Source: Microbacterium sp. nov. GSS16 (GTDB lineage Bacteria; Actinomycetota; Actinomycetes; Actinomycetales; Microbacteriaceae). Taken from it: a stretch of 64,000 nt of DNA. Positions 3,333-33,723 of the stretch are shown piece after piece. Numbering within the stretch: the first letter of the stretch is position 1; each line of letters begins with the position of its first letter. The translations under genes were made by a program, and so were the position numbers. The notes beneath the pieces are model-generated. The model worked only from the letters and a program-made list of their open reading frames with translations. It did no database searches and was not told the origin of the DNA. The stretch covers positions 1,984,001 to 2,048,000 of the forward strand of contig NZ_CP116338.1 in the NCBI RefSeq assembly GCF_028198145.1, given 5' to 3'.

Positions 3333-4130
3333 GTGACCAGCGCGCAGAACCGCCGCACACCGCTCATCGCGGGCAACTGGAAGATGAACCTCGATCACCT
3401 TCAGGCCGTTGCGACCGTGCAGAAGCTGCACTGGACGCTGAAGGACGCGGGGCACGAAGGCGACTCCGTCGAGGTGGCGGTGTTCCCGCCGTTCACCGAC
3501 ATCCGCAGCGTGCAGACGCTGATCGACGCCGATAAGATCCCGTTCGCCCTGGGCGCCCAGGATCTCTCGGCACACGACTCCGGCGCGTACACCGGCGAGG
3601 TGTCGGGCGCGTTCCTGTCGAAGCTGAACGTCGGCTACGTGATCATCGGTCACTCCGAGCGCCGCGAATACCACCGCGAGGACGACTCGCTCGTGAACGC
3701 CAAGGTCAAGGCCGCGCTGAGGCACGGCCTCATCCCGGTGATCTGCGTCGGCGAGACCGCCGAGGATCTCGAGAAGTACGGCGCCAGCGCCGTGCCGGCC
3801 GGCCAGCTCGAGAAGGCGCTCGAAGGCGTTCCCGCATCGGCGGACATCGTCGTGGCGTACGAGCCGGTCTGGGCGATCGGCTCGGGTCAGGCGGCGACTC
3901 CCGCTCAGGCGCAGGACGTCTGTGCCGCGCTGCGCGGCGTGCTCGCTGAGGTGCTCGACGAGGAAGCGGCCGCCCGCACCCGAGTGCTGTACGGGGGATC
4001 GGTCAAGTCGGGCAACATCGCCAGCTTCATGCGCGAGCCGGATGTGGACGGTGCGCTGGTGGGCGGCGCGAGCCTCGTCGTCGACGAGTTCGCGGCGATC
4101 GTGCGGTTCCAGAAGCACGTCGGCGTGTGA
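3333..4130 (+). CDS. tpiA: Triosephosphate isomerase
   Basis: Interconverts dihydroxyacetone phosphate and glyceraldehyde 3-phosphate. The 265-residue TIM barrel shows K17 in GNWKMN, H107 in IGHSERR and the catalytic Glu177 in [10 protein letters not shown], followed by the phosphate-binding YGGSV loop. The frame is open from an ATG at 3318 inside pgk. GTG 3333 is preferred because GGGAG (3320-3324) sits 8 nt before it and the protein then begins near the conserved NWKMN block. It closes the gap-pgk-tpiA run. Confidence 0.96.
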
Positions 4131-4160
4131 GTCGGGACGGGGCGCGAGAGCGCCTCGTCC

Positions 4161-4166
4161 TATAAT
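4161..4166 (+). promoter_or_regulatory. Consensus -10 hexamer upstream of secG-rbpA
   Basis: A perfect TATAAT lies 30 bases after the tpiA stop and 45 bases before the secG GTG. No convincing -35 element is seen at 17 nt. It probably gives secG-rbpA its own promoter in addition to readthrough from tpiA. Confidence 0.5.
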
Positions 4167-4210
4167 TGACCGCTAGACGGGCATTCCGGCCCCGGCGAAA
4201 GGCTTTCCTC

Positions 4211-4459
4211 GTGCAGGTTCTCGAGTTCGTTCTGCAGGTGCTCACTGGCATCACCAGTGTGCTGCTGACGCTCCTCATTCTTCTTCACAAGGGTCGCGGT
4301 GGCGGCCTGTCCGACATGTTCGGCGGTGGGATGTCGGCTGCGGTCGGCTCTTCCGGCCTCGCCGAGCGCAACCTCAACCGATTCACGATCGTGCTCGCCC
4401 TGATCTGGTTCATCTCGATCGTCGCGCTCGGTCTCATCACGAAGTTCCAGGTGATCTGA
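4211..4459 (+). CDS. secG: SecG subunit of the Sec translocon
   Basis: A small membrane protein of the SecYEG protein-export channel. The 82 residues form two hydrophobic segments (about residues 1-23 and 54-80) separated by the conserved glycine-rich loop 'HKGRGGGLSDMFGGG'. That loop and the position after tpiA identify it. The start is the GTG at 4211, eight bases after GGCGAAAGG. An in-frame TTG at 4166 would add a basic stretch overlapping the -10 element, so it is less likely. The stop overlaps the rbpA start as TGATG. Confidence 0.92.
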   Translation: MQVLEFVLQVLTGITSVLLTLLILLHKGRGGGLSDMFGGGMSAAVGSSGLAERNLNRFTIVLALIWFISIVALGLITKFQVI

Positions 4460-4815
4460 TGGCTACCGGAGGAAACGCGATCCGCGGCACACGTGTCGGC
4501 TCGGGTCCCATGGGCGAGCAGGACCACGGCTACCACGCCGACCGCATCCCCGTGTCGTACTGGGACGGCCTCGGCAACGAGACCGTCCGCTACTTCGCGG
4601 CCGGGCTCCCCGACGAGGAGATCCCCGAGACGATCGACCACCCGCAGAGCGGGCTGCCCGCGGGGCGCGATCGGCAGAACCCGCCGACGCTCGCCAAGCC
4701 CGAACCGTACAAGACACATCTCGCGTACGTGAAGGAGCGCCGCACCGACGAAGAGGCCAAGCAGCTTCTCGAGGACGCCCTCACGCAGCTGCGCGAGCGT
4801 CGCGGCGGCAACTGA
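4459..4815 (+). CDS. rbpA: RNA polymerase-binding protein RbpA
   Basis: RbpA is an actinobacterial RNA polymerase accessory factor that contacts the principal sigma factor and helps open the promoter complex. The 118-residue protein has the N-terminal 'IRGTRVGS..MG' segment, a middle domain and a C-terminal charged helix 'KERRTDEEAKQLLEDAL' that forms the sigma-interaction domain in the family. The middle domain contains no cysteine, unlike Streptomyces RbpA, which binds zinc there. The gene starts inside the secG stop (TGATG), and a terminator follows. Confidence 0.93.
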   Translation: MATGGNAIRGTRVGSGPMGEQDHGYHADRIPVSYWDGLGNETVRYFAAGLPDEEIPETIDHPQSGLPAGRDRQNPPTLAKPEPYKTHLAYVKERRTDEEAKQLLEDALTQLRERRGGN

Positions 4816-4828
4816 GCATCGAGACATG

Positions 4829-4863
4829 AAGAACCCCCGGTGGTACCACCCCCGGGGGTTCTT
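4829..4863 (+). terminator. Terminator of secG-rbpA
   Basis: A perfect 12-bp stem (4829-4840 with 4852-4863) ends in TTCTTCTCT. The loop contains GGTACC. It lies 13 bases after the rbpA stop. Confidence 0.85.
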
Positions 4864-4911
4864 CTCTGTGCCGGGCTCCGGGCGCGCCGGATCGGAGAAC
4901 GCCGGATGATT

Positions 4912-4947
4912 GAAGAAGGCCCCCACCTCGCGGTGGGGGCCTTCTTC
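4912..4947 (-). terminator. Terminator of the minus-strand tRNA-Gly gene
   Basis: A perfect 16-bp inverted repeat (4912-4927 with 4932-4947) with a 4-nt loop starts five bases beyond the tRNA 3' end. The stem reads the same on both strands, so it can also stop plus-strand transcription. Confidence 0.8.
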
Positions 4948-4952
4948 AGGAG

Positions 4953-5023
4953 AGGGGATGACGGGAATCGAACCCGCGTCATTAGTTTGGAAGACTAAGG
5001 CTTTACCATTAAGCTACATCCCC
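4953..5023 (-). tRNA. tRNA-Gly (anticodon TCC)
   Basis: Read on the minus strand, the 71-nt sequence folds as a cloverleaf. The acceptor GGGGATG pairs with CATCCCC, the D arm begins TAGCTTAATGGTA, and the anticodon stem TTAGT/ACTAA encloses CTTCCAA with anticodon TCC (4989-4991). The T arm contains GGTTCGATTCC and the discriminator is T. CCA is not encoded. A minus-strand TATGCT lies at 5080-5085, about 57 bases upstream. Confidence 0.93.
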
Positions 5024-5079
5024 GGAATTCCGGCGGTGTCTCGCCCTCTCAGGCGCCCGCTGAGCGGAGCACCTCGTAA

Positions 5080-5085
5080 AGCATA
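5080..5085 (-). promoter_or_regulatory. -10-like element upstream of tRNA-Gly
   Basis: TATGCT on the minus strand, 57 bases before the tRNA 5' end. It matches the TANNNT elements found before many genes in this window. No clear -35 element was found. Confidence 0.3.
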
Positions 5086-5112
5086 GCGGACGGAGCGACG
5101 TGTTCCGTCCGT

Positions 5113-5118
5113 TAGACT
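5113..5118 (+). promoter_or_regulatory. -10-like element upstream of tRNA-Pro
   Basis: TAGACT lies 33 bases before the tRNA-Pro 5' end. It may drive the tRNA and possibly tig downstream. Confidence 0.35.
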
Positions 5119-5150
5119 CGTCAGGGCCGTTCCCGTGTGCGGGTTCAAGC

Positions 5151-5227
5151 CGGGGCGTAGCTCAGCTTGGTAGAGCGCCCGCTTTGGGAGCGGGAGGTCG
5201 CAGGTTCAAATCCTGTCGCCCCGACCA
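5151..5227 (+). tRNA. tRNA-Pro (anticodon TGG)
   Basis: A 77-nt cloverleaf. The acceptor CGGGGCG pairs with CGCCCCG, the D arm reads TAGCTCAGCTTGGTAGAG, and the anticodon stem CCCGC/GCGGG encloses TTTGGGA with anticodon TGG (5185-5187). The T arm contains GGTTCAAATCC. The discriminator A and a full CCA (5225-5227) are encoded, unlike the other two tRNAs here. It lies 58 bases upstream of tig. Confidence 0.95.
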
Positions 5228-5285
5228 CGGTCGAAGACTTCACGACCGCGTCGTCAACGCGGAAACCACAAGGAGACACACCAGC

Positions 5286-6773
5286 ATGGCCAACAGCACC
5301 GTCGAGAAGCTGTCCCCGACCCGGGTCAAGCTCACCATCACGGTCACCCCTGAGGACCTCAAGCCCAGCATCGCCCACGCCTACGAGCACATCGCCCAGG
5401 ACGTGCAGATCCCCGGCTTCCGCAAGGGCAAGGTCCCGGCTCCGATCATCGACCAGCGCGTCGGCCGCGGCGCCGTCATCGAGCACGCCGTGAACGAGGC
5501 CCTCGACGGCTTCTTCCGTGAGGCTGCCGCCGAGCACAACGTCCGCATGGTCGGCCGTCCCGCTGCCGACATCACGCAGTGGCCGAACGAGAAGGACTTC
5601 TCGGGTGACCTGCTCGTCGACATCGAGGTCGACGTGCGCCCCGAGATCGAGCTCCCCGAGCTCTCGGACATCACCCTCACGGTCGATGCCGTCGAGGCCG
5701 ACGAGGCGGCGATCGACGCCGAGCTCGACAACCTGCGCGCGCGCTTCGGCACCCTGATCCCCGTCGACCGTCCGGCTGCGACCGGTGACTTCGTCGAGCT
5801 CGACCTCGTCGCCACCATCGACGGCGCCGAGATCGACCGCGCCGAGGGCGTGTCGTACGAGATCGGCTCGGGCGAGCTGCTCGAGGGCATCGACGAGGCG
5901 CTGGACTCACTCACCGCCGGTGAGGAGACGACGTTCCGCTCGGCTCTCGTGGGCGGCGACCACGCCGGCGAGGAGGCCGAGGTCTCGGTGACGCTCAAGG
6001 CCGTCAAGGAGCGCGAGCTGCCCGAGGCCGACGACGACTTCGCTCAGATGGCGTCGGAGTTCGACACCGTCGCAGAGCTGCGCGAGAGCCTCGCCGAGCG
6101 CGTCGCCCAGCAGGGCGTCTTCACCCAGGGCGCCGCCGCCCGCGACCAGCTCATCGAGAAGCTGCTCGAGCAGGTCGAGATCCCCGTTCCCGCTCAGCTC
6201 ATCGAGGACGAGGTGCACGCGCACCTCGAGAACGAGAACCGCCTCGAGGACGACGAGCACCGTGCAGAGGTGGCCGAGGCCAGCGAGAAGCAGTTCCGCA
6301 CGCAGGTGCTGCTCGACACGATCGCCGAGAACGCGAACGTCCAGGTGTCGCAGGAGGAGCTCAGCCAGTACCTCATCCAGTCGGCCGCGCAGTACGGCAT
6401 GGCGCCGCAGGAGTTCGTCGAGGCGCTGCAGGGTGCCGGCCAGCTGCCCGCCCTCGTCGGCGAAGTCGCCCGCAACAAGGCCCTCGCCGCGACCCTCGGC
6501 AAGGTGAACATCGTCGACAGCAACGGCAAGAAGGTCGACCTGTCGGAGTTCATCGGCGATGCCGAGGACGAGGACGCCGCTGACGCCGAGGAGGCTCCTG
6601 CCGCTGAGGAGAAGCCCGCCCCGAAGAAGAAGGCTCCGGCGAAGAAGAAGGCCGCGACCGAGAAGGCCGCAGCCGACGACGATGCCGAGAAGCCCGCCAA
6701 GAAGCCTGCCGCGAAGAAGGCTCCGGCCAAGAAGGCAGCTGCGAAGAAGGACGAGGCTGAGAAGGCCGAGTGA
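5286..6773 (+). CDS. tig: Trigger factor, ribosome-associated chaperone, with a Lys/Ala-rich tail
   Basis: Trigger factor binds the ribosome near the exit tunnel and shields nascent chains. The 495-residue protein has the N-terminal ribosome-binding domain with 'GFRKGKVP' (family signature GFRxGxxP), an FKBP-like domain beginning about residue 160 ('[10 protein letters not shown]'), and the helical C-domain. After about residue 425 come some 70 extra residues: first acidic, then Lys-Ala-Pro repeats such as [11 protein letters not shown] resembling histone H1 tails. The ATG at 5286 has AAGGAG (5270-5275). Upstream in-frame sequence runs through the tRNA and is excluded. Confidence 0.95.
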
Positions 6774-20207: not shown

Positions 20208-20245
20208 GGAGTGTTCCCCTTCTCCGCATGCATCGAGGTTCCCGA

Positions 20246-21865
20246 ATGCCTTCTTTCCCTGTGCGTCGTCTTCTGCCGCTGGCCGCCCTGGCCGCGGCAT
20301 CCGCCCTTCTGCTCAGCGCCTGTGCACGACCGGCCGGTGACGCCGGCGGTTCCGAGGCCGAGCTCGTCTGGGCGATCGAGGGCGCCAACCTCTCGGCCGG
20401 ACACATGGATCCGCAGACCAGCCAGCTCGACGTGTCGGGGATGGTGCAGCGTCAGGTGCTCGACTCCCTGGTCTTCCAGGAGGCCGACGGGTCGTTCTCG
20501 CCGTGGCTCGCGAAGAGCTGGAAGGTGTCCGAAGACGGCAAGACGTACACGTTCGAGCTTCGCGACGACGTCGCGTTCTCCGATGGCACGGCGTTCGATG
20601 CCGAGGCCGTGAAGGCGAACTTCGACCGGATCGTCGATCCCGCCACCAAGTCGGCGCAGGCGGCGAGCATGCTCGGTGGCGAGCTGTATGCAGGCACCGA
20701 GGTCGTCGGCGAGCACACGGTCGAGGTCAGCTTCACTCAGCCGTACGCACCGTTCCTGCAGGCGGCCAGCACGGCGCAGCTCGGGTTCTGGTCGCCGAAG
20801 GCGCTCGCGTCGTCGAACGACGAGCTCGCAGCCGGCGGTCCCGACGTCTCGATCGGCACCGGTCCGTTCGTGCTCAGCGAGTACACCGCCGACCAGGAGA
20901 TCGTCTACACCCGCAACGACGACTACACCTGGGGCCCCGACGGCGCGACGGCTCCGAAGATCAAGACCCTGCGCGTGGAGCTGCTGCCCGAGGCATCCGT
21001 CCGCGCCGGCGTGCTCGCATCGGGCGAGGCGGACGTCGCGACCCAGCTGCCGCCGAACGTCGTCGCCGACCTCGGCGACGACGTCACGGTCACCGCCAAG
21101 GAGTACCCGGGCCTGCCGTACTCGCTGTTCCTCAACGAGAAGCACGGCGTCTTCGCCGATCAGAAGGTGCGTCAGGCGTTCTCGCGGGCGATCGACATCG
21201 ATGCGGCCGTCGACGAGATCTTCTTCGGCGAGTTCCCCCGCGCGTGGAGCATCCTTGGTCCCACGACCCCCGGCTACGACAAGAGCCTCGAGGGCAGCTG
21301 GCCGTTCGGCGCCGATGAGGCGAACGCCCTGCTCGATGAGGCCGGCTGGACAGAGCGCGGCGCCGACGGCATCCGGATGAAGGACGGCAAGCGCCTCTCG
21401 GCCCGCTGGATCGCCTGGACCCCGATCTCGGACGACCGCACCGCGCTCGCCAACGCCATTCAGTCCGACCTGAAGGACGTCGGCTTCGAGATCGTCCGGG
21501 AGAAGCTCGAACCCGCCGCCTACAACGAGCAGTACGGCCCGAAGACGTACGACATCACCGACTGGGACTTCTCGGGCGTGGATGCCGACCTGCTGCGCAG
21601 CCACCTCGGCACCGACGGGTTCCAGAACGCCTCGCAGGTGAGCGATCCCGCCGTCGACGAACTGCTCGAGCGCGGGCTCTCGACATCGGACACGTCGGAG
21701 CGGGCGGAGATCTACACCGAGCTGCAGCAGTGGAACGCCGAGCATGTCGCGATCGTGCCGCTGTACGTGTCATCGCTGATCACCGGATCCGTGAAGGGCG
21801 TCGAGGGCCTGGAGTACGACCTGTACGGCCGGCCGCTGTTCTACAGCGCGAGCGTCAGCCGCTGA
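20246..21865 (+). CDS. ABC transporter peptide-binding lipoprotein (SBP family 5)
   Basis: A 539-residue extracytoplasmic solute-binding lipoprotein of the DppA/OppA/NikA family. It has a basic-hydrophobic signal 'RRLLPLAALAAASALLLSAC', whose final cysteine is the lipidation site. The mature part shows the family pattern 'LVFQEADGSFSPWLAKSWKVSEDG' (quoted partly) and 'DDVAFSDGTAFDAEAVK'. The ATG at 20246 with GAGG eight bases upstream places the signal correctly; an ATG at 20228 is less likely. It heads a complete operon with two permeases and a fused ATPase. The ligand is probably a short peptide, unproven. Confidence 0.92.
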   Translation: MPSFPVRRLLPLAALAAASALLLSACARPAGDAGGSEAELVWAIEGANLSAGHMDPQTSQLDVSGMVQRQVLDSLVFQEADGSFSPWLAKSWKVSEDGKTYTFELRDDVAFSDGTAFDAEAVKANFDRIVDPATKSAQAASMLGGELYAGTEVVGEHTVEVSFTQPYAPFLQAASTAQLGFWSPKALASSNDELAAGGPDVSIGTGPFVLSEYTADQEIVYTRNDDYTWGPDGATAPKIKTLRVELLPEASVRAGVLASGEADVATQLPPNVVADLGDDVTVTAKEYPGLPYSLFLNEKHGVFADQKVRQAFSRAIDIDAAVDEIFFGEFPRAWSILGPTTPGYDKSLEGSWPFGADEANALLDEAGWTERGADGIRMKDGKRLSARWIAWTPISDDRTALANAIQSDLKDVGFEIVREKLEPAAYNEQYGPKTYDITDWDFSGVDADLLRSHLGTDGFQNASQVSDPAVDELLERGLSTSDTSERAEIYTELQQWNAEHVAIVPLYVSSLITGSVKGVEGLEYDLYGRPLFYSASVSR

Positions 21866-21866
21866 C

Positions 21867-22832
21867 GTGCGGCGCGCCCTGGTCCGGATCGCCGGGACCG
21901 CCGCCTCCGCCGTGCTCGTCCTCTGGGGCGCGGCGACGCTGGCCTTCCTGGCGCTGCGGATCATCCCCGGCGATGCCGTCTCGGTCATGCTCGGCCCGCA
22001 GGCGAAGGTGAGCGAGGCGGTGAAGGCGGCGGTCAGGGCCGATCTCGGCCTCGACCGCCCTCCGCTCGAGCAGTACCTCTCGTACATCGGGGGACTCCTG
22101 CGTGGTGATCTGGGGACGTCGTATCAGCTCCGGATGCCCGTGACCGAGGTCATCGGCCGTCAGCTCGGGCCCACCGTGCAGCTCACGGCGCTGGCGCTGC
22201 TGACCGCGGTTCTCGTCGCGCTCGCCGTGGCGCTGTTCGCGCGACGCGGGCTCGCGAGGACCGTGGTGGTCGCGGGGGAGCTGATCGTGCTCTCGTCGCC
22301 GGTGTTCTGGATCGGCATCGTCCTGCTGGCGGTCTTCGCCTTCGGGGTGGGCTGGTTCCCCGTGGCGGGCACGCGCAGCGCTGCCACGGTGGTGCTGCCC
22401 GCGCTCACGCTCGCACTTCCGGTCGCGGCGCTGATCGGTCAGGTGCTGCGCGACGGCATCGACGAGGCCGAGCGACAGCCGTTCGCCGAGACCGTCCGCT
22501 CCCGCGGCGCCGGATCGTCCCGCCTCGTGCTGCGGCACTCGCTGCGCCACGGCGCGGCGAGCGCGCTCACCCTCACTGCCTATCTCATCGGCTCGCTGCT
22601 CGGCGGTGCGGTGCTCGTCGAGACCGTGTTCGCGCGGCCCGGGCTCGGGCGGGTGACGCTGACCGCCATCGTCGACCGCGATCTGCCCGTCGTCGCGGGC
22701 GTGATCATGCTCAGCGCCCTCGTGTTCGTCATCGTGAACGTGATCGTCGAGCTGCTGCATCCGATCATCGACCCGCGACTGCGCGCGCGGTCCGCCGCGT
22801 TCGAGGCGCCCGCCATCGAGGAGCGCCGATGA
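21867..22832 (+). CDS. ABC transporter permease, DppB-type
   Basis: A 321-residue inner-membrane permease of the DppB/OppB class with about six membrane segments. The first is at residues 9-33, followed by the extracellular loop 'IPGDAVSVMLGP' typical of the family. The cytoplasmic EAA loop is represented by 'FAETVRSRGAGSSRLVLRHSL'. The start is the GTG at 21867, one base after the binding-protein stop. The end overlaps the next permease by four bases. It pairs with the 22829 gene to form the channel. Confidence 0.93.
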   Translation: MRRALVRIAGTAASAVLVLWGAATLAFLALRIIPGDAVSVMLGPQAKVSEAVKAAVRADLGLDRPPLEQYLSYIGGLLRGDLGTSYQLRMPVTEVIGRQLGPTVQLTALALLTAVLVALAVALFARRGLARTVVVAGELIVLSSPVFWIGIVLLAVFAFGVGWFPVAGTRSAATVVLPALTLALPVAALIGQVLRDGIDEAERQPFAETVRSRGAGSSRLVLRHSLRHGAASALTLTAYLIGSLLGGAVLVETVFARPGLGRVTLTAIVDRDLPVVAGVIMLSALVFVIVNVIVELLHPIIDPRLRARSAAFEAPAIEERR

Positions 22833-23638
22833 TCGCCCGACGGGTGGGGCTGGGGTGCGCCGCGGCCTTCCTCGTCGTCGTCGCGCTCGCCGCGGCATTT
22901 CCCGACCTGCTCGCCACCCATGACCCGCTGCGCACCGATGTGCGCTCGGCGCTCGAGGCGCCGGGGCCGGCCCACCTGTTCGGCACCGACCAGTCGGGCC
23001 GCGACGTGTTCTCGCGGGTCGTGCACGGAGCCGCACGCTCCGTCGGGATCGGACTGCTGGCGACGACGCTCGCGGTGATCGCCGGTCTCGTGCTCGGCTC
23101 GCTCTCGGGCGTCGCACCCCGAGCGGTGGATGCCGCGGCGATGCGCGTCACCGACATCCTGCTCGCTTTCCCCGAATTCCTCATCGCGCTGATCGTCGTG
23201 GCGGTGCTCGGCCCTGGCGCGGTCAACGTCGCCATCGCGGTGACGATCGCGGCGGTGCCGGTGTACATCCGGCTCGCCCGCACGCAGACCCGCACGCTGC
23301 GCATCGCAGAGCACGTGGAGGCGGCCCGCATCCTGGGCGTCGGCGCCGTGCGCACCTTCACCCGGCACGTCGCGCCCGGGGTCCTCGGGACGCTGAGCGT
23401 GCTCGCCACCATCGGCATCGGGTCGAGCATCCTCGCCGCCGCCGGCCTCAGCTTCCTCGGCCTCGGCCCCTCGGAGCCGGCTCCGGAATGGGGACTCATG
23501 CTCTCGGGCGGACGCAATGTGCTCGGCCGCGCCTGGTGGATCTCGGTCTTCCCGGGTCTTGCCATCACGCTGACCGTGATCAGCGCCACGGTGCTCGGCC
23601 GAGCCCTGCGCGCGCGAGCCGAGGGGAGGCGCTCATGA
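22829..23638 (+). CDS. ABC transporter permease, DppC-type
   Basis: A 269-residue second permease with the N-terminal segment and 'HLFGTDQSGRDVFSRVVHGA', the hallmark of DppC/OppC proteins. Five to six further membrane segments follow. The EAA loop includes 'HVEAARILGVGAVRTFTRHV'. The ATG overlaps the preceding stop, and its own stop overlaps the ATPase start as ATGA, so the four genes form a tightly coupled operon. Confidence 0.94.
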   Translation: MIARRVGLGCAAAFLVVVALAAAFPDLLATHDPLRTDVRSALEAPGPAHLFGTDQSGRDVFSRVVHGAARSVGIGLLATTLAVIAGLVLGSLSGVAPRAVDAAAMRVTDILLAFPEFLIALIVVAVLGPGAVNVAIAVTIAAVPVYIRLARTQTRTLRIAEHVEAARILGVGAVRTFTRHVAPGVLGTLSVLATIGIGSSILAAAGLSFLGLGPSEPAPEWGLMLSGGRNVLGRAWWISVFPGLAITLTVISATVLGRALRARAEGRRS

Positions 23639-25119
23639 GCGCGGTGCACGTGCGGGGACTGCGCATCCGCATCGGCGCGCAGGCGATCGTCGACGGGGTC
23701 GATCTCGACATCGCCCCGGGCGAGTGCGTGGCGATCGTCGGCGAATCCGGGGCCGGCAAGTCGCTCACCGCACGTGCGCTGCTCGGGATGCTGCCGGACG
23801 GCGCCCGCATGACAGCGGACGAGCTGCGGATCGACGGCATCGACGCCGCCGGGCTCGGCGAGGCCTCGTGGCGTGCCCTGCGCGGCCGGCGCGTCGCGCT
23901 CGTCTCGCAGGACGCGCTGGCCGCGCTCGATCCGCTGCGCCGGATCGGCCGCGAGGTCGCCGAGCCGATGGAGATCCACCGCCTGCACCGCAGTGACCGG
24001 CAGGCGCAGGTCGTGCGGCTGCTGGCTTCCGTGTCGCTGCCCGAACCGGAGAGGCGCGCGCGCAGCCGCCCGCACGAGCTGTCGGGCGGGATGCGTCAGC
24101 GAGCGCTGATCGCGTCGGCACTCGCCGCCGATCCCGCGGTGCTGGTCGCCGACGAGGCGACGACGGCGCTGGACGCCACGGTGCAGGCGCGCATCCTCGC
24201 TCTGTTGCGCTCGATCGCCGACGACGGACGAGCCGTACTGTTCATCAGCCACGACTTCGCGGCGGTGCGGCGGGTGGCCGATCGGGTGCTGGTGATGCGC
24301 GCGGGGCGCATCGTGGAGCACGGTGGCGTGGCGGAGGTCATGGCGTCGCCGCGCGAGGAGTACACCCGCGCCCTCGTCGAGGCGAGCATCCTGCGCGCGC
24401 GCACCCCGACGCGACCGGCGGGTGAGCTGCTGCTGCAGGTGCGCGACGTGTCGAAGCGGTTCGAGCGGCCCGCGGTCATCGGCGCCTCATTCGCTCTCGT
24501 GTCCGGCCGCACGCTCGGCGTCGTCGGGGAGTCCGGGTCAGGCAAGACGACCCTCGCCCGGATGCTGATCGGCGTGGAGCGGCCCGACAGCGGAGTGATC
24601 GAGTGGGCGTCGGCGCAGCGGGTGCAGCTCGTGCACCAGAATCCGCTCGGCGCGTTCGACCCGCGGTGGACGATCGGCCGGTCGATCGCCGAGGCGCTGC
24701 AGGCCGCCGGCGCCCGTCGTGGCGATCGCTCCGCTGCCGTGGCGGCCCTGCTCGCGGAGGTGGGACTGGATGCGGAGCTCGGACGTCGGCGCCCTCGTCA
24801 GCTGTCCGGCGGGCAGCTGCAGCGCGCCGCCATCGCACGGGCGCTCGCCGCCGACCCGCAGGTGCTCGTGCTCGATGAGCCGGTGTCCGCTCTGGACCCC
24901 ACCGTGCGCGCTCGGGTGCTCGACCTGCTCGCGCGCCTGCAGATCGAACGCGGGCTGACGATGGTCTTCGTCTCGCACGACCTCGCTGTCGTCGCGGCGG
25001 TCTGCGACGACGTGCTGGTGATGCGCGACGGTGTGATCGTCGAGCGCGGCCCTGTGGCCGACGTGTTCGCCGCGCCGACGCATCCGTTCACGAGGGAGCT
25101 CCTCGCCGCCGGCAGATGA
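23635..25119 (+). CDS. ABC transporter ATPase, two nucleotide-binding domains fused (DppD-DppF type)
   Basis: A 494-residue protein holding both ATPases of a peptide importer in one chain. Domain 1 has Walker A at residues 36-43 (GESGAGKS), signature LSGGMRQR and Walker B 'VLVADEATTALD'. Domain 2 has Walker A at 298-305 (GESGSGKT), signature LSGGQLQR and 'VLVLDEPVSALD'. In many bacteria these are separate DppD and DppF proteins. GAGGGGAGG precedes the ATG, which overlaps the permease stop. This gene ends the operon. Confidence 0.94.
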   Translation: MSAVHVRGLRIRIGAQAIVDGVDLDIAPGECVAIVGESGAGKSLTARALLGMLPDGARMTADELRIDGIDAAGLGEASWRALRGRRVALVSQDALAALDPLRRIGREVAEPMEIHRLHRSDRQAQVVRLLASVSLPEPERRARSRPHELSGGMRQRALIASALAADPAVLVADEATTALDATVQARILALLRSIADDGRAVLFISHDFAAVRRVADRVLVMRAGRIVEHGGVAEVMASPREEYTRALVEASILRARTPTRPAGELLLQVRDVSKRFERPAVIGASFALVSGRTLGVVGESGSGKTTLARMLIGVERPDSGVIEWASAQRVQLVHQNPLGAFDPRWTIGRSIAEALQAAGARRGDRSAAVAALLAEVGLDAELGRRRPRQLSGGQLQRAAIARALAADPQVLVLDEPVSALDPTVRARVLDLLARLQIERGLTMVFVSHDLAVVAAVCDDVLVMRDGVIVERGPVADVFAAPTHPFTRELLAAGR

Positions 25120-25224: not shown

Positions 25225-26952
25225 ATGACTCCCGTTCTTCTCATGCTCATCGGATTGGCGATCTTCGCCGTCGGATACCTGTTCTACTCGCGGTACCTGG
25301 CCAATCGGGTCTACCGCCTCGACGCGTCTTTCGCGACCCCCGCTCACGAGCTCAACGACGGCGTGGATTACGTGCCGACGAACAAGTTCATCCTCTGGGG
25401 GCACCACTTCACCTCGGTCGCCGGCGCGGCGCCCATCGTGGGGCCCGCCATCGCGGTGATCTGGGGATGGGTTCCGGCCTTCCTCTGGGTCACGCTCGGC
25501 ACGGTGTTCTTCGCCGGCATGCACGACCTCGGAGCGCTGTGGGCCTCGACCCGCAACAAGGGCCGATCGATCGGCGCCCTGTCGGCGCGCTACATCGGCA
25601 AGCGTGGCGCCGGCCTGTTCCTCGTCGTGATCTTCCTGCTGCTGCTCATGGTGATCGCCGCCTTCGCGGTCGTCATCAAGAACCTGCTGATCTCCACACC
25701 CAGTGCGGTGATCCCCACCTGGGGAGCGATCGTGGTCGCACTGCTCGTCGGCATCGCCGTGTATCGCCTGCGCTGGCCGCTGCTGCCCGTGACCGTCGTC
25801 GGCGTCGCCACGCTGTATGGGCTGATCGTGCTCGGCGACCAGATGCCGGTCGTGCTGCCGGACGACTTCCTCGGCATGGGGCCTGCGACCTTCTGGATCC
25901 TCGCGCTGTTCGTCTACGGAGCCATCGCCTCGCTGCTGCCGGTGTGGGTGCTGCTGCAGCCGCGTGACTACATCAACGGCGTGCAGCTCTTCGTCGGGCT
26001 GATCCTGCTGTTCGGGTCGGTGCTCACCGCGACGCTCTTCTCGGGGGCCGCACCCGAGATCGTCGCGCCCGCGATCAACACCGCCGTTCCCGAGGGGACG
26101 CCGAGCATGGTTCCCCTGCTGTTCGTCACCATCGCGTGCGGTGCGATCTCGGGATTCCACGGCATGGTCTCGTCCGGCACGAGCTCGAAGCAGCTCGACA
26201 AGGAGACCGACGCCCGGTTCGTCGGCTACTTCGGCGCGGTGGGCGAGGGGCTGCTGTCGCTCGGAACGATCCTCGCGGTGATCGCAGGGTTCCGCACGGT
26301 CGCCGAGTGGGACGAGGTGTACAGCGCGTTCGGCGCGGGCGGCGTCGGAGCCTTCGTGACCGGTGGCGGTGCGCTGATGCAGGCGGGCATCGGGCTGCCC
26401 GCCTCGCTCAGCGCCACGGTGCTCGCCACCATGGCGGTGCTGTTCGCGGCGACGACCATGGATACCGGCATGCGCCTGCTGCGCTTGGTCGTACAGGAGA
26501 TCGGCGACTCGGTGAAGCTGCGGATCACGAAGGTGCCCGCGACGATTGTCGTCGTCGTGGTCGGTCTCGGGCTCACCTTCTCGCAGGGCCTCGGCGGCGA
26601 CGGCGGTCTTCGCATCTGGCCCCTGTTCGGAACGACGAACCAGCTGATGGCCTCGCTGACCCTGTCGATCATCGCGGTCATGCTCATCCGCAAGCGCCGC
26701 AACCCTCTGCCGGCGCTGATCCCGCTGGTGATCGTCTTCGTGCTGTCGTTCTGGGCGGCGATCGAGCAGCTCGCGTCGTTCGCCGACCCTGCGAAGGCGG
26801 ACTGGCTGCTGTTCGCGCTGGATGTCATCATCATCGCCTCGAGCGTCTGGGTCGCCGTGGAGGCTGTGCTCGCGATGCGTCGGGCCGCGCGGGAGGAACC
26901 CGAGCACGAGGATGAGGACGCCCGGCTCGAGGCGGTTCGCGAGGAGGTCTGA
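25225..26952 (+). CDS. cstA: CstA-family membrane transporter (carbon starvation protein)
   Basis: A 575-residue polytopic membrane protein. Family members import peptides or pyruvate when preferred carbon is limiting. About 14-16 hydrophobic segments run through most of the chain. Family motifs include 'GHHFTSVAGAAPIVGPAIAV' and the later 'GFHGMVSSGTSSKQL'. The ATG at 25225 follows AAGGAAG, and the upstream frame has no membrane character. The next gene encodes a small protein ending in Cys-Cys, as do the YbdD/YjiX partners of enterobacterial CstA and BtsT. An ArsA-like ATPase follows. Confidence 0.93.
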   Translation: MTPVLLMLIGLAIFAVGYLFYSRYLANRVYRLDASFATPAHELNDGVDYVPTNKFILWGHHFTSVAGAAPIVGPAIAVIWGWVPAFLWVTLGTVFFAGMHDLGALWASTRNKGRSIGALSARYIGKRGAGLFLVVIFLLLLMVIAAFAVVIKNLLISTPSAVIPTWGAIVVALLVGIAVYRLRWPLLPVTVVGVATLYGLIVLGDQMPVVLPDDFLGMGPATFWILALFVYGAIASLLPVWVLLQPRDYINGVQLFVGLILLFGSVLTATLFSGAAPEIVAPAINTAVPEGTPSMVPLLFVTIACGAISGFHGMVSSGTSSKQLDKETDARFVGYFGAVGEGLLSLGTILAVIAGFRTVAEWDEVYSAFGAGGVGAFVTGGGALMQAGIGLPASLSATVLATMAVLFAATTMDTGMRLLRLVVQEIGDSVKLRITKVPATIVVVVVGLGLTFSQGLGGDGGLRIWPLFGTTNQLMASLTLSIIAVMLIRKRRNPLPALIPLVIVFVLSFWAAIEQLASFADPAKADWLLFALDVIIIASSVWVAVEAVLAMRRAAREEPEHEDEDARLEAVREEV

Positions 26953-26955
26953 TCG

Positions 26956-27240
26956 ATGAGTCGCACCGAGGCGGCCCGGCGCCTGCGCCGGCGCTGGGCC
27001 GCCTTCCGGCGGGGGCTGGCGGAGTACTACGCCGGCCCCTATCGGCAGATGCTCGCCCGCGAGCAGCGCGATGAGGACGACCTGTTCACCCTGATCGTGC
27101 TCGGCGAGGCGCTCGGTGTTCCCGACCCGGCGGCGTACTACAGCGTCGAGCTCATGCCCCTCGTCGCCGATGACTTCCACCGCTGGCACCGACGGATGGG
27201 CATGCCGCGATCACCCCTGGATCACGTCTCGTGCTGCTAG
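26956..27240 (+). CDS. Small CstA-associated protein ending in Cys-Cys (cory-CC-star/YbdD-like)
   Basis: Ninety-four residues, very basic at the N-terminus ('RRLRRRWAAFRRG'), with a central helix 'DLFTLIVLGEALGVPDPA' and the terminal sequence DHVSCC. Small proteins ending in CC accompany CstA-type transporters: YbdD and YjiX in enterobacteria, and in actinobacteria a family I recall as cory-CC-star. The body does not resemble YbdD closely, so only the position and CC ending are shared. It starts three bases after cstA and overlaps the ATPase gene by ten bases. The cysteines could bind metal, a thiol partner or a lipid; none is shown. Confidence 0.75.
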   Translation: MSRTEAARRLRRRWAAFRRGLAEYYAGPYRQMLAREQRDEDDLFTLIVLGEALGVPDPAAYYSVELMPLVADDFHRWHRRMGMPRSPLDHVSCC

Positions 27241-28205
27241 ACGCTTTTCGGCGCCCCCTGCTGTTCGTGGGCGGCAAGGGCGGCGTAGGCAAGACGTCTC
27301 TGGCATCCGCGCTCGCCGTCGCACGCGCCCGCACTGGTGAGCGCGTGCTGGTGGTCTCGACAGACCCGGCCCACAACCTCGGGCATCTGTGGCGCATCGA
27401 GGCGGGCGACGCCCCGGTGAGGTTGGGGCGATTCGGTGGCGGAGTCGTCGACGGGGTCGAGATCGACCCGCAAGCCACGATCGACAGGCACCTGGCCGCG
27501 GTCGAGGGCACGATGCTGTCGATGCTGCCCGAACGGCAGCACGGCCCTGCGCACACGCATCTCGAGCGCGCACGCCATGCACCGGGCAGTCACGAGTCGG
27601 CGGTGCTGGAGCGCATCGCGGAGTTCGTGGAGGCCGGACGCACCGACTACGACGCCGTCATCTTCGACACCGCTCCATCGGGACACACACTGAGGCTGCT
27701 GGCTCTGCCGGGACAGCTCGCGGGGTGGACGGAGACGCTGCTGCGCAATCGCGACCGCTCCGAGCGATTCTCGGCAGCCATGCGTGGGCTGACGGGCGCG
27801 CCGGATGCCCAGGCCGAGGCTCAGTCCGATCTCCGCCGCGCCCTGCAGCGACGACGCGACCGCTTCGCGGCGATGCAGCAGGCCGTCGCGGACCCGGCGC
27901 AGTGCGGGTTCGCGGTCGTGTTCACCGCCGAGGCCCTTCCCGTCGCCGAGACGCTCGAGGTGGTGGCGAACCTGCGGGGAATGGGCGTCGCCGTCGGCGC
28001 ACTGATCGCCAACCGGCGCTCGCCCGCCGATGCCGGCGAGCTGCTGGCGGCACGTCGCACCGTCGAGGACGCGCACCTCCGGCATGTGCGAGATGCCGTG
28101 CCCGATGCCGCGGTGATCGAGATCCCGCTGATCGCCGGGGAGCTGACGGGCGTCCAGGCGCTCGTGGCCCTCGCCGACACGCTGGTTGAGGCCGAGCGGA
28201 TCTGA
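27231..28205 (+). CDS. ArsA/Get3-family ATPase
   Basis: A 324-residue cytosolic ATPase with the deviant P-loop GGKGGVGKT at residues 14-22 and switch motifs 'STDPAHNLG' and 'IFDTAPSGHTLRLL'. These define the ArsA/Get3 (signal-recognition GTPase-like) class. No arsenite-binding Cys triad or arsB/arsR neighbours are seen, so arsenic export is unlikely. It starts with GTG inside the CC-protein gene and so shares its operon with cstA. A role in handling the CC protein or the transporter is an inference from this linkage. Confidence 0.85.
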   Translation: MLLDAFRRPLLFVGGKGGVGKTSLASALAVARARTGERVLVVSTDPAHNLGHLWRIEAGDAPVRLGRFGGGVVDGVEIDPQATIDRHLAAVEGTMLSMLPERQHGPAHTHLERARHAPGSHESAVLERIAEFVEAGRTDYDAVIFDTAPSGHTLRLLALPGQLAGWTETLLRNRDRSERFSAAMRGLTGAPDAQAEAQSDLRRALQRRRDRFAAMQQAVADPAQCGFAVVFTAEALPVAETLEVVANLRGMGVAVGALIANRRSPADAGELLAARRTVEDAHLRHVRDAVPDAAVIEIPLIAGELTGVQALVALADTLVEAERI

Positions 28206-28743: not shown

Positions 28744-28936
28744 ACAAGCTGTGATCCGGCCATCACCGGGGAGCTCTCGGAAGAAAGGTCGTCAGACCGA
28801 CTAGAACCGAGCGGGGCAGGCCCGTCATCGCCGCAGTGAGAGCGGCTTCGTGAGAAGCACGCAGGGTGGTACCGCGGTCCGTGCACGCACGGGTCGTCCC
28901 TGCAGCAGCATCCGCCCACGACCACTGCGAGAGACG
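28744..28936 (+). ncRNA. Ile T-box riboswitch leader of ileS (actinobacterial ultrashort stem I type)
   Basis: The leader contains the T-box sequence AGGGTGGTACCGCGG at 28863-28877, with the TGGT bulge that pairs with the 3' end of uncharged tRNA. Near its 5' end, CCGG (28756-28759) and CCGG (28766-28769) enclose loop CCATCA, placing an isoleucine specifier ATC at 28762-28764. This is the class II layout of actinobacterial ileS leaders, which control translation rather than termination. The T-box end is about 60 bases from the ileS ATG, consistent with sequestering its start region. Confidence 0.93.
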
Positions 28937-31900
28937 ATGACCTATCCGCGCCCTTCACTTCGACTCGCTGACGCCCGCTCAGGGGAGGCGACAAGCTCTT
29001 CGACCGGCTCAGCGCAGGCACCAGGGACCGAATCCGCCTTCGGTCCTGCCGCCGTCACCCCGAGCCCGCGCTTTCCCGAGATCGAGCGCGAGGTGCTCGA
29101 CTTCTGGAAGACAGACGACACCTTCCGCGCCTCGATCGCGCAGCGCGAGGGCGCCGACGAGTGGGTCTTCTACGACGGCCCGCCCTTCGCCAACGGCCTG
29201 CCGCACTACGGGCACCTGCTCACCGGCTACGCGAAGGACGTCTTCCCGCGTTTTCAGACGATGATCGGCAAGAAGGTCGATCGCGTCTTCGGGTGGGACA
29301 CGCACGGTCTTCCCGCCGAACTCGAGGCGATGAAGCAGCTCGGCATCACCGAGAAGAGCGAGATCGAGCAGATGGGCATCGACGTCTTCAACGCGAAGGC
29401 GCGCGACTCGGTGCTCACCTACACCCGCGAGTGGCAGGACTACGTGACCCGCCAGGCCCGCTGGGTCGACTTCGAGCGCGGCTACAAGACCCTCGATCTC
29501 GGCTACATGGAGAGCGTGCTCTGGGCGTTCAAGACGCTCTACGACAAGGGCCTCGCCTACGAGGGCTACCGTGTGCTGCCGTACTGCTGGCGCGACGAGA
29601 CCCCGCTGTCGGCGCATGAGCTGCGCATGGACGACGACGTCTACAAGGACCGCCAGGACCCCTCGGTCACCGTGACCTTCCCCCTGGTGGGCGCCAAGGC
29701 CGAGACGCTCGGCCTCACCGCCGTCCGCGCCCTCGCCTGGACGACCACCCCGTGGACCCTCCCCACCAACCTCGCCCTCGTCGTCGGCCCCGACATCGAG
29801 TACGTGGTGCTGCCCGGCGGACCGAACGGCGCCGCCGACATCGTGCCGGGCGACGACCCGGCCGAGAGCGATGCGCATCGCTACATGCTCGCCCGCGACC
29901 TGCTCGGCGGCTACGCCAAGGATCTGGGATACGAGTCAGCAGACGACGCGCTCGCCGCCGTGCAGCAGACCGTGCTCGGCGCGGAGCTGGCCGACGTCGC
30001 ATACGACAGGCTCTTCGACTACTACGCGGATGCCGAGATCTGGGGCACCGAGAACGCCTGGCGCATCCTCGTCGACGACTACGTGACCACCACCGACGGC
30101 ACCGGCATCGTGCACCAGGCGCCGGCCTACGGTGAGGACGACCAGCGGGTGACGAACGCCGCCGGCATCCCGACGATCATCTCGCTCGACGACGGCGGGC
30201 GGTTTCTGCCGTCGGTCACCGATGTCGCCGGTGAGCTGTGGATGGACGCGAACACGCCGCTCATCCGCCTGCTGCGCGCGGCGGGACGGATGCTGCGCGA
30301 GCAGAGCTACGTGCACTCCTACCCGCACTGCTGGCGCTGCCGGAACCCGCTGATCTACAAGGCGGTGTCGAGCTGGTTCATCCGCGTCACCGAGATCAAG
30401 GACGATCTGCTCGCCAACAACGAGCAGATCACCTGGGTGCCCGAGAACGTCAAGCACGGCCAGTTCGGCAAGTGGCTCGAGGGCGCCCGCGACTGGTCGA
30501 TCAGCCGCAACCGCTACTGGGGCTCACCTATCCCGATCTGGAAGAGCGACGACCCCGAGCACCCGCGCGTCGATGCCTACGGATCCCTCGAAGAGCTCGA
30601 GCGCGACTTCGGCACGCTGCCGCGAAACCCCGAGGGCGAGGTAGACCTGCACCGCCCGTACATCGACGACCTCACGCGTCCCAACCCGGACGACCCGACC
30701 GGGCGCAGCACGATGCGCCGCATCGAGGACGTCTTCGACGTGTGGTTCGACTCGGGATCGATGCCGTACGCGCAGGTGCACTACCCGTTCGAGAACCAGG
30801 AGTGGTTCGACTCGCACTCGCCGGCCGACTTCATCGTCGAGTACATCGGGCAGACCCGCGGCTGGTTCTATGTGATGCACGTGCTCTCGACCGCGCTGTT
30901 CAACCGCCCGGCGTTCACCGGCGTGAGCTGCCACGGCATCGTGCTCGGCAGCGACGGCTACAAGATGTCGAAGTCGCTGCGCAACTACCCGGACGTCAGC
31001 GAGGTGCTCGACCGGGACGGGTCGGATGCCATGCGCTGGTTCCTCATGTCGAGCTCGGTGCTGCGCGGCGGCAACCTGGCCGTCACCGAGGAGGGCATCC
31101 GCGCCGGGGTGCGCGAGTTCATCCTGCCACTGTGGAACTCGTGGTACTTCTTCGCGACCTACGCCAATGCTTCGGGTGACGGTGGATACGAGGCGTCGTG
31201 GCGCACCGACTCGACCGACGTGCTCGACCGGTACATCCTCGCCCGTCTCGGCGACCTCGTACGCGAGGTGCGCGCCGACCTCGAGGGGCTCGACTCGACG
31301 ACGGCATCGGCACGCCTGCGCGACTTCGCCGAGGTGCTCACCAACTGGTACATCCGGCGCTCCCGCGACCGCTTCTGGGAGGGCGCCGGCGACGACCCGA
31401 AGAGCCGTGAGGCCTTCGACACGCTCTACACGGTGCTCGAGACGCTGACGCGCGTCGCGGCTCCGCTCGTGCCGCTGATCGGCGAGCGCGTGTGGCAGGG
31501 CCTGACCGGCGGGCGCAGCGTGCACCTGACCGACTGGCCGGATGCGGACGCGTTCCCCGCTGCGGATGAGGTGCGTGACGCCATGGACGCGGTCCGCGAG
31601 CTCTCCAGCGTCGGCAACGCGCTGCGCAAGAAGGAGAAGCTGCGCGTGCGACTGCCGCTCGCCCGCCTCACGGTCGTGTCGCCGCTCGCGGCGGACCTCG
31701 CCCAGTTCGAGGGCATCCTGCGAGAAGAGCTCAACGTGAAGTCGGTCGAGCTGGTGCAGCTCGCCGAGACGACGGCATCCGAGTACGGCATCACCCACCG
31801 CCTCAGCGTCAACGCCCGCGCCGCGGGACCGCGCCTGGGCAAGGAGGTGCAGAGGGTCATCCGCGCGGCGAAGGACGGCTTCTGGGCCGAGGAGGGCGGG

Positions 31901-32374
31901 GTGGTGACCGCCGACGGCATCGCTCTCGAGCCGCACGAGTACGACCTGGTGCTCGAGACCGCAGGGCGCCCGGAAGGCGAGGCCCTCGCCCTGGTGCCCG
32001 GCGGCGGGTTCATGCTGCTCGACACCGTGACCACGCCGGAGCTCGAGGCCGAGGGGATGGCGCGGGATGCGATCCGCGTCGTGCAGGAGGCTCGCAAGAA
32101 CGCCGGTCTCGACGTGAGCGACCGCATCGTGCTCGCTCTGAACGTCTCCGCGGCGGACGCGGAGGCTCTCCGTCAGCACGCCGACCTGATCGCCGGCGAG
32201 ACGCTCGCGGTCGGATTCGCGGTGCAGCCCACCGACGAGATCGAGCAGGTGGCCGAAAGCCTGGGCAGTCCCGGTGACGGCGTGTTCCGCACCAGCGCCA
32301 AGGCGCTGGGATCGCAGAAGGCGACGATCATCGTCACGATCGATTCGAACGTCGCCCAGGAGGCAGCGCGATGA
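28937..32374 (+). CDS. ileS: Isoleucyl-tRNA synthetase (IleRS2-like) with repeat-expanded N-terminus
   Basis: Class I synthetase of 1,145 residues. The first signature is HYGH (residues 90-93), as in the eukaryote-like IleRS2 group, and KMSKS is at 676-680. The CP1 editing domain lies between, and the long C-terminal region is typical of IleRS2, a type often naturally tolerant to mupirocin. The start MTYPRPS matches relatives. About 27 extra residues ('[19 protein letters not shown]' and more) sit between that start and '[16 protein letters not shown]', encoded by repeats at 28958-29027. Expression is controlled by the T-box leader. folC overlaps its stop by four bases. Confidence 0.95.
28958..29027. 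repeat. Dispersed TTCGAC...GCTCAGGG repeats within the 5' coding region of ileS
   Basis: CTTCGACTCGCTGACGCCCG with following CTCAGGGG (28958-28985) and CTTCGACCGGCTCAGCGCAG with following GCACCAGGGA (28998-29027) resemble the repeat at 17349-17390. They encode low-complexity Ser/Ala/Gly residues in the linker before the IleRS catalytic core. Confidence 0.6.
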
Positions 32375-33723
32375 GCGACACCCAGCGGGCCGACGTCGTC
32401 TACGAAAAGCTGCTCGAGCGGGCGGGGGAGCGGTGGGTTCAGCCGCGCAAGGAGCGGGTCGCCCGCATCCTGACCCTGCTCGACGATCCGCAGCGCACCT
32501 ACCGCGTCGTGCACATCACCGGCACGAACGGCAAGACCTCGACTGCGCGCATGATCGAGAGCCTGCTGCGCTCGCACGGGCTGCGCACCGGCCTGTTCAC
32601 CAGCCCGCACCTCAAGCGCTTCACCGAGCGGATCATGATCGACGGCGAGCCGATCGCCGATGGAGCTGTGGCGGACGCCTGGGATGAGATCGAGCCGTTC
32701 GTCGACATCGTCGACGCCGAGCTGGAGGCTGCGGGAGACGCGCCGCTGACGTTCTTCGAGCTGCTCACGGTGCTCGCCTTCGTCGCCGCGTCGGACGCGC
32801 CGGTCGACGTGCTCGTGCTGGAAGTGGGAATGGGCGGGTCGTGGGACTCGACCAACACCGCCGACGGCGACGTCGCGGTCTTCGCGCCGATCGACATGGA
32901 TCACGCAGACCGTCTCGGCGCCACGGTCGAGGCCATCGCCGAGGTGAAAGCCGGGATCATCAAAGACGGCGCCGCCGTCGTCTCGGCGGAGCAGAAGCCC
33001 GAGGTCGCGGCGGTGCTGCGCCGCGTCGCAAGCGAGAAGGATGCGACGATCGCGTTCGAGGGCGAGGATTTCGGACTCAGCGATCAGAAGCTCGCCGTCG
33101 GTGGTCAGCTGATCGGCATCCGCGGACTGGCCGGCGATTACGTCGACGAGTACCTCCCGTTGTACGGCGCGCACCAGGGGCACAACGCCGCCCTCGCCGT
33201 CGCCGCGGTCGAGTCGCTGATCGGCGGGGCATCGCAGCGCATCGTCGGCGACATCCTCGCCGACGGGCTGCAGAACGCGACATCTCCGGGGCGCCTGCAG
33301 CTGGTCGGCATCGCGCCGACTGTGGTCGTGGATGCCGCGCACAACCCGCACGGCGCCGCAGCGCTGGCGCGCTCGCTCGATGACAGCTTCGACTTCGACG
33401 AATGGGGGCTCGTGCTCGGCGTGTTCGCCGACAAGGACGCTGACGGCATCGTCGATCAGCTGCTCCCGCAGGTCGCCGAGGTGTTCGCGACAGCTCCCGA
33501 TTCCGATCGCGCGGCGGATGCGGATGCCATCGCCGACCTCGTCGAGGAGCGCGGCCGCCGCGCGAGCGTGCATCCGACCCTCGCCGACGCCGTCGATGCG
33601 GCCCGGGAGTGGGCGGCCTCGGCCGACCGTCGCGCCGTGGTGATCGCAGGCTCGATCGTGCTGGCGGGCGAGGCCCTGCTGCTCTCGGAGGAGGAGGACT
33701 GGAAGTCGGGGTGGCGCGCATGA
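32371..33723 (+). CDS. folC: Folylpolyglutamate synthase / dihydrofolate synthase
   Basis: Adds glutamate to dihydropteroate and folates. The 450-residue protein belongs to the Mur-ligase family. It has the ATP loop GTNGKT at residues 51-56, '[15 protein letters not shown]', the 'VLEVGMGG' Mg2+/folate strand and the C-terminal '[15 protein letters not shown]' motif. Its ATG overlaps the ileS stop (ATGA), and its own stop overlaps the next gene the same way, so translation along ileS-folC-DUF4233 is coupled. Confidence 0.94.

Follow-up and report, generated by a model that had tools for sequence, protein, structure and literature searches.

A cstA, cory-CC-star and ArsA/Get3-class ATPase operon in Microbacterium sp. 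nov. GSS16 and its counterparts in other bacteria

We analysed a stretch of 64,000 nt from the genome of Microbacterium sp. nov. GSS16 (the whole stretch, at this length, is called the window; coordinates are positions in it). At 25225–28205 the window carries consecutive genes for a CstA-family transporter, a small protein ending in two cysteines (CC) and an ATPase of the ArsA/Get3 class (Table 1). The three genes form one tight operon, a complete and ordinary copy of a known kind. The original prediction, made from the sequence alone, had described three genes with a 3-base gap and a 10-base overlap, the CC end of the middle protein and the GGKGGVGKT motif of the third; all of these were confirmed. 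The gap separates cstA from the small-protein gene and the overlap joins the latter to the ATPase gene, whose GTG start sits within the last codons of the gene before it. This position of the ATPase start, together with the GAGGAGG sequence in the end of cstA, makes translational coupling across the three genes likely.

Table 1. Features of the operon in the window
Feature	Position	Strand	Remarks
cstA, short-form CstA-family transporter	25225..26952	+	575 aa, ATG start; PF02554
cory-CC-star small protein	26956..27240	+	94 aa, ATG 26956, stop 27238–27240; NF041419
Single-domain ArsA/Get3-class ATPase	27231..28205	+	324 aa, GTG start; TIGR00345, PF02374
GAGGAGG, putative ribosome-binding-like sequence in the cstA 3′ end ahead of cory	26941..26947	+	sequence reading

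The window CstA matches PF02554 with 428 bits (cut-off 27), whereas it stays under the cut-off of the E. coli CstA equivalog model NF011590 (217 versus 1188 bits) and is thus not an E. coli-type member. The small protein matches NF041419, the cory-CC-star family, with 123.1 bits (cut-off 80), and no Pfam family; its C-terminus reads ...HVSCC, with an HxxH motif at residues 75/78 and the CC at 93–94. The original prediction had mentioned cory-CC-star as a name given to CC-ending actinobacterial proteins; such a family exists, and the small protein of the window (cory hereafter) is itself a member. The ATPase scores 203 bits with TIGR00345 (cut-off 135) and 194 bits with PF02374 (cut-off 24), and its P-loop GGKGGVGKT and the motifs STDPAHN and DTAPSGHT are intact. 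The genome has a single cory gene by the NF041419 search, one CstA gene by PF02554 (matched as two pieces), one strong PF02374 match (194 bits) with four more at 24–36 bits, above the low cut-off, and no PF04328 (YbdD-type) protein.

Operons of the cstA-cstX-arsA type were described by Castillo and Saier in 2010 (PMC2963123). The accessible part of that paper reports 26 CstA-ArsA operons, of which 24 include the small CstX. The trees were found to coevolve, arsenic genes were missing, and the single-domain ArsA proteins lacked the three arsenic cysteines; Brevibacterium and Rubrobacter are each named there once. Its authors proposed that ArsA energises CstA and that CstX serves as a linker. 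We identify CstX with cory-CC-star by size and position; the window module, with proteins of 575, 94 and 324 aa and with no arsenic neighbours, has the layout of these operons. The original prediction named no worked-out function for the three-gene set; both the association and a proposed mechanism had already been published. The same accessible text yielded no mention of the HxxH/CC residues or of the fourth protein treated below. In the open-licence literature we found no experimental test of the function of the module ATPase or cory and no paper using the term ‘cory-CC-star’; among the matches listed there, no title but that of PMC2963123 names the trio. NCBI annotation already labels the trio in three plasmid records that we inspected.

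In a scan of one genome per species, from which the best 80 of 275 relatives were kept, cstA lay just upstream of cory in 79 of 80 cases and the ATPase gene just downstream in 79 of 80, on the same strand, so that the linkage is more than chance. With 23 further module loci from the window genome and from Actinomycetota searches the set came to 103 loci. Their order is fixed and co-directional: cstA is upstream of cory in 101 of the 103 and the ATPase gene downstream in 102. One locus with no module gene (L028) was dropped as a chance match, and loci of a two-ATPase type (L024–L027, L029, L030) were excluded from the count. Ten of the 103 loci, L073 among them, duplicate the cory sequence of another locus, which leaves 93 distinct sequences. 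The module occurs in Actinomycetota, Pseudomonadota, Gemmatimonadota and Bacillota, as well as in a metagenome-assembled genome (MAG) labelled Halothece. Linkage confined to the genus, which the original prediction had named as the outcome that would count against it, was thus not what we found.

The distribution is patchy near the window, with the module in two of four genomes of the same genus and in neither of two other genomes of the same family. Across 396 Actinomycetota genomes, 28 had a match to NF041419, 21 of them above the cut-off; the corresponding number for 398 Pseudomonadota genomes was seven, the genome at the centre of the search included. All seven pseudomonadotal loci have the ATPase and the CC end, and six have cstA in the examined stretch. 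The seventh (L102, 4594–5870), from a gammaproteobacterial MAG, has the cory-ATPase pair flanked by genes that we take to be rnfH-like and bamE-like, with cstA on another contig; cory and the ATPase thus appear to be the tighter pair there, and the module ATPase is the only TIGR00345 protein above the cut-off in this genome. At one further locus (L019) cstA is not visible, the stretch starting at the contig start 540 bases ahead of the match.

Trees of CstA, cory and the ATPase, built from 65 loci (31 of 96 loci were omitted for lack of a long enough CstA or ATPase), have correlated distances (r 0.82–0.87), as is also expected from shared vertical descent; the three genes are inherited together. 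When rooted at the midpoint, each of the three trees groups the Salinisphaera loci (Gammaproteobacteria) in one clade with actinobacterial loci that have a fourth gene, with support of 1.0 for CstA, 0.91 for cory and 0.56 for the ATPase; loci without the fourth gene belong to the same clade. This placement suggests that the module was transferred jointly.

Conservation in cory is concentrated at its C-terminal end. The terminal CC is present in all 93 distinct proteins, that of the window included, and at all 103 loci; neither scan pattern included it, although the NF041419 model employed in other searches does. HxxH followed by the terminal CC occurs in 96 of 96 distinct sequences, a count partly ascertained because FHxWH was part of one of the two patterns used in the scan. 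Residues G54, P58, H75, H78, C93 and C94 (window numbering) are invariant across the 96, and R30, W77 and G82 are kept at 97–99%. Conservation of the CC merely through the overlap with the ATPase start was ruled out, since in 13 of 102 loci the ATPase frame opens only past the cory stop and the CC is kept in 13 of 13 (L099 being doubtful because its ATPase frame is split, and L070 and L071 sharing one cory). A hydropathy screen, as distinct from a topology experiment, gave no membrane span: none of the 96 proteins exceeded 1.6 in the Kyte-Doolittle 19-residue maximum (median 1.07, window 1.23). Homology of cory to ArsD found no support, and no convincing match came from searching PDB with profiles of cory, YbdD and the fourth protein.

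Residue conservation in the two partners was read from alignments of 87 ATPases and 70 CstA proteins from the 96 loci. In CstA, C305 and H312 are invariant across all four groups aligned; no position stood out in the alignment as a clear candidate to account for cory binding, and with the window CstA as query, PDB yielded no relative by sequence search. In the ATPases, Cys is found in at most 20 of 87 sequences at any column, hence there is no conserved Cys. CooC and HypB insert or remove metal, and the module could by analogy be a metal route, in which cory binds metal through its two His and two Cys, the ATPase inserts or removes it, and the transporter either depends on a metal complex or has one as its cargo. 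The invariant H75, H78, C93 and C94, the invariant Cys and His of CstA and the loss of the CC from the two-ATPase variant described below fit such a route. Metal-inserting relatives of the ATPase, however, usually have a conserved Cys, which the module ATPases lack, and we regard the metal route as improbable.

An arsenic role for the ATPase was ruled out. The window ATPase scores 113 bits with the ArsA model TIGR04291 (cut-off 650). A tree of 107 sequences places all seven ArsD-linked ArsA proteins in a separate group (support 1.0) and the 94 module ATPases together with weak support (0.27). Two columns are Cys in all seven ArsD-linked ArsA proteins and in none of the 94 module ATPases, the first of them being Gly in all 94; we infer from the accessible part of PMC2963123 that these Cys are metalloid ligands. 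None of six neighbouring proteins in the window matches an arsenic family (E 1e-10), as the original prediction had noted of the gene's surroundings. The window ATPase should accordingly not be read as an arsenic resistance gene.

Sequence matches of the ATPase in PDB include Get3 and ArsA, and membership of the TIGR00345 superfamily could be taken to mean that the ATPase delivers tail-anchored proteins to a membrane receptor as Get3 does, with CstA or cory as client. Such a role is very improbable, as cory has no span-like segment (see above) and the region that in Get3 forms the hydrophobic client groove is hydrophilic in the 61 module ATPases, of 87, for which it could be measured.

A divergent form with two small proteins and two ATPases was found on five contigs (L141–L145) of four Actinomycetota genomes. 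The terminal CC is absent from all nine of the small proteins observed, and HxxH is absent from the last 75 residues of eight. In these few genomes (four), the HxxH at its usual place and the CC appear to have been lost together, as would be expected of parts of one site. The two ATPases differ in their switch motifs, one having an altered DTAP and the other an Asn in place of the Asp in the first switch, so that they look like an asymmetric pair. We also observed, in L143 (~5404–6213) and L144 (~4120–5328) on the plus strand, a gene for a protein of ~210 aa with one hydrophobic N-terminal segment, located between cstA and the first small-protein gene and opposite to both; it may be the CstY of Castillo and Saier.

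YjiX, the small partner of BtsT in E. coli, ends in CC, and the original prediction had likened the CC end of the middle protein to those of YbdD and YjiX. The shared ending stands; homology of cory to YbdD found no support (hhalign probability 2.9%, the alignment covering the CC alone), and the likeness is thus one of analogy. The suggestion that the module is distinct from the enterobacterial pair is supported. PF04328 proteins were found in 17 of 198 Actinomycetota genomes; a CstA gene lies near 15 of the 17 and an ArsA protein near none (~1.5 kb on each side). Ten of the 15 YbdD tails that were read end in CC and five in CP, which counts against a strictly required dithiol in YbdD. The YbdD-type proteins of L159, L164, L165, L167 and L171 have an Arg-Cys-Pro ending instead of Arg-Cys-Cys. 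One Actinomycetota genome (G171) carries both systems (L147, L148). In E. coli, according to the accessible part of PMC5847655, full pyruvate uptake requires both cstA and ybdD, and uptake falls to 13% without cstA and to 20% without ybdD.

Ahead of cory, in 26 of the 93 distinct loci, lies a gene for a fourth protein of ~135 aa. It directly follows cstA in 25 of them (L061, L066, L068, L069 and others show it between cstA and cory); in the 26th (L019) the stretch starts inside the fourth gene. The motif is SGCCG in 24 of 26 proteins and ASCCG in another; at the contig edge, no CCG is visible in L019. The CC and a DPRN motif are invariant in 23 aligned rows, in one of which TGA replaces the first Cys codon. 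Five members tested against Pfam and NCBIfam reached the cut-off of no family; one of the five had sub-threshold thioredoxin-like matches (E 0.2, 0.14) and two others had matches of this kind to unrelated families. Similarity to ArsD was weak (hhalign probability 37% over 26 columns) and this candidate was set aside. The fourth protein is absent from the window genome; it was found in 21 of 392 Actinomycetota genomes, 15 with cory and six without. In the six it follows cstA in five cases and has neither cory nor an ATPase gene in the stretches examined, so that we do not press a reading as a metallochaperone for the ATPase.

The TGA-containing member comes from the Cytobacillus spongiae plasmid NZ_CP089998.1 (L174, 5805–6173), where an in-frame TGA takes the place of the codon for the first Cys in the CC. 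The frame containing it opens at an upstream ATG that has a GGAGGG leader, and the annotated hypothetical protein covers the post-TGA part only. The 37 bases past the TGA fold to a hairpin of −13.4 kcal/mol (z −3.4, with 0 of 200 shuffles as stable); a 58-base segment, the first to be folded, adopted another structure (z −1.4; 16 of 200 shuffles equally stable). The same replicon has a gene annotated as selB, which scores 346 bits (cut-off 242). In the 18 kb surrounding selB we detected no tRNA gene, tRNA-Sec included; an Rfam scan of 5 kb of this region gave no match, and the Rfam matches across the hairpin were at chance level. An internal stop was present in none of 22 fourth-protein matches in Actinomycetota, and the plasmid searches returned NZ_CP089998.1 alone. 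Taken together, the sequence features of this one record make it very probable that the Cytobacillus fourth protein is a selenoprotein. It is conceivable, though we are doubtful, that CstA importers have repeatedly recruited unrelated small proteins with adjacent cysteines (YbdD, cory and the SGCC protein), that thiol, selenol or metal chemistry matures or switches uptake, and that the cory branch added an ArsA-class ATPase to load or reset its small protein.

For the module itself our preferred reading, advanced tentatively and from sequence comparison, is that cory is an accessory subunit of CstA which a dedicated ATPase loads or resets. The three genes would make up one importer unit, with CstA as the secondary transporter and, judging from the family, pyruvate or peptides as the substrate. 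Cory would be a soluble accessory subunit with a metal or dithiol site made up of its C-terminal HxxH...CC. As a dedicated switch of the ArsA/Get3 class, probably a dimer, the ATPase would bind cory and, with ATP binding and hydrolysis, either load it onto CstA or remove and reset it. Uptake would thereby be matured or controlled; on this reading the ATPase neither serves an arsenic pump nor powers transport.

The last point separates this reading from that of Castillo and Saier, in which the ATPase powers uptake by CstA, as ArsA does for ArsB, and the small protein is a coupling linker. The proposal came from 26 operons and matching trees (PMC2963123, accessible part), and the gene linkage is confirmed here on a larger set. 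Still, CstA often does without a nearby ATPase: a short-form CstA has neither cory nor ATPase within ~4 kb in five of eight plasmid loci inspected (haloarchaeal and clostridial records), and the YbdD loci and the fourth-protein loci of cory-less genomes described above pair CstA with a small partner and no ATPase close by, although unlinked ATPases are possible in all these cases. Thus the ATPase need not power transport; together with the cory-ATPase pair of L102, these loci favour a loader or reset factor, and an energising role seems to us unlikely.

The ATPase might also sense ATP/ADP and open or close CstA via cory, acting as a metabolic brake in place of an assembly factor. The intact P-loop and switches would suit such an energy gate, as would the finding that in five of the six searched genomes or records the module ATPase alone among TIGR00345 proteins passes the cut-off (the exception is the L073 MAG, which lacks it), and that the window genome has no second strong one. 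Sequence by itself, however, does not separate a gate from a loader, and we would give the gate a rather low probability.

Several observations weigh against loading or resetting of cory by a dedicated ATPase. A Salinisphaera MAG (L073) has cstA and cory and no ATPase above the cut-off in the assembly. From the ATPase side, a plasmid search (E 1e-20) returned seven records, six of them the cory records; in the seventh, NZ_CP119994.1 of the archaeon Halomarina, a related ATPase stands beside a major facilitator superfamily (MFS) transporter. The correlation of the trees and the HxxH count have the limits given above. In the two-ATPase variant, small proteins that lack the CC still accompany ATPases, which makes the link between ATPase and small protein independent of the CC; the ninth small protein of the variant (L143) has HEEH, placed on visual inspection nearer the C-terminus than the HxxH in cory. 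The original prediction had suggested that the ATPase may deliver, assemble or regulate the CC protein or the transporter; the link of the ATPase with the small protein does not depend on the CC. Other partners for the ATPase, which the prediction had also considered, were looked for mostly from the cory side, and the MFS-linked plasmid record is the one such case among the seven. On the whole the interpretation given in the prediction is partly supported.

In the Halomarina record (L264, 3914–6252) a gene for a TRC40/GET3/ArsA-type ATPase directly precedes that of the MFS transporter, with no cstA and no annotated cory; perhaps it is an ATPase of the same class serving another transporter.

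Upstream of the operon in the window, on the same strand, lies a family-5 solute-binding (peptide-type) ATP-binding cassette (ABC) importer (20228–25119); downstream are a class I tRNA synthetase and a Mur-ligase-type protein (28850–33723), which may be ileS-like and folC-like. The 102-aa protein encoded at 28371 matches no Pfam family. The ABC importer was considered as a part of the operon and rejected, since in the one other genome of the genus that was compared, the 18 kb around the module lack the genes flanking it in the window. Promoter, terminator and Rfam scans of this region of the window found nothing.

The interest of the module rests on the role of the ATPase, on the HHCC residues of cory and on the fourth protein, the last lying outside the window. 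The module adds a dedicated ATPase to the question of how CstA-type importers use small partners, and the HxxH/CC residues, the variant without CC and the probable selenocysteine form lead to specific point-mutant tests.

Among known systems, the arsenical ArsA shares the ATPase superfamily, and ArsD, which serves an ArsA ATPase, also has adjacent cysteines; ArsA differs in having two domains and the Cys columns, whereas the module ATPase is a single domain with those Cys in none of 94 proteins. Get3/TRC40 and the mycobacterial BagA/BagB are single-domain ArsA-class ATPases like that of the module; the window ATPase scores 60 bits with the BagA model (cut-off 400). Get3 has a conserved cysteine pair that binds zinc at the dimer interface, while the module ATPases have no conserved cysteine for such a zinc site. 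The E. coli pairs CstA/YbdD and BtsT/YjiX likewise place a CstA-family transporter next to a small CC-ending protein; E. coli CstA, however, is long (an open frame of 716 aa), has no ATPase gene in the examined stretch, and its YbdD has no detectable homology to cory. The operons of Castillo and Saier have the same make-up, with CstA, a protein of ~90 aa, a single-domain ArsA homologue of ~330 aa and no arsenic genes, as far as the accessible part of PMC2963123 describes them; the CstX of their archaeal cluster 14 is given there as a one-span membrane protein, in contrast to cory here. The window copy differs in no way from the NCBIfam family NF041419, and the layout, known since 2010, belongs to a module present in several bacterial phyla.

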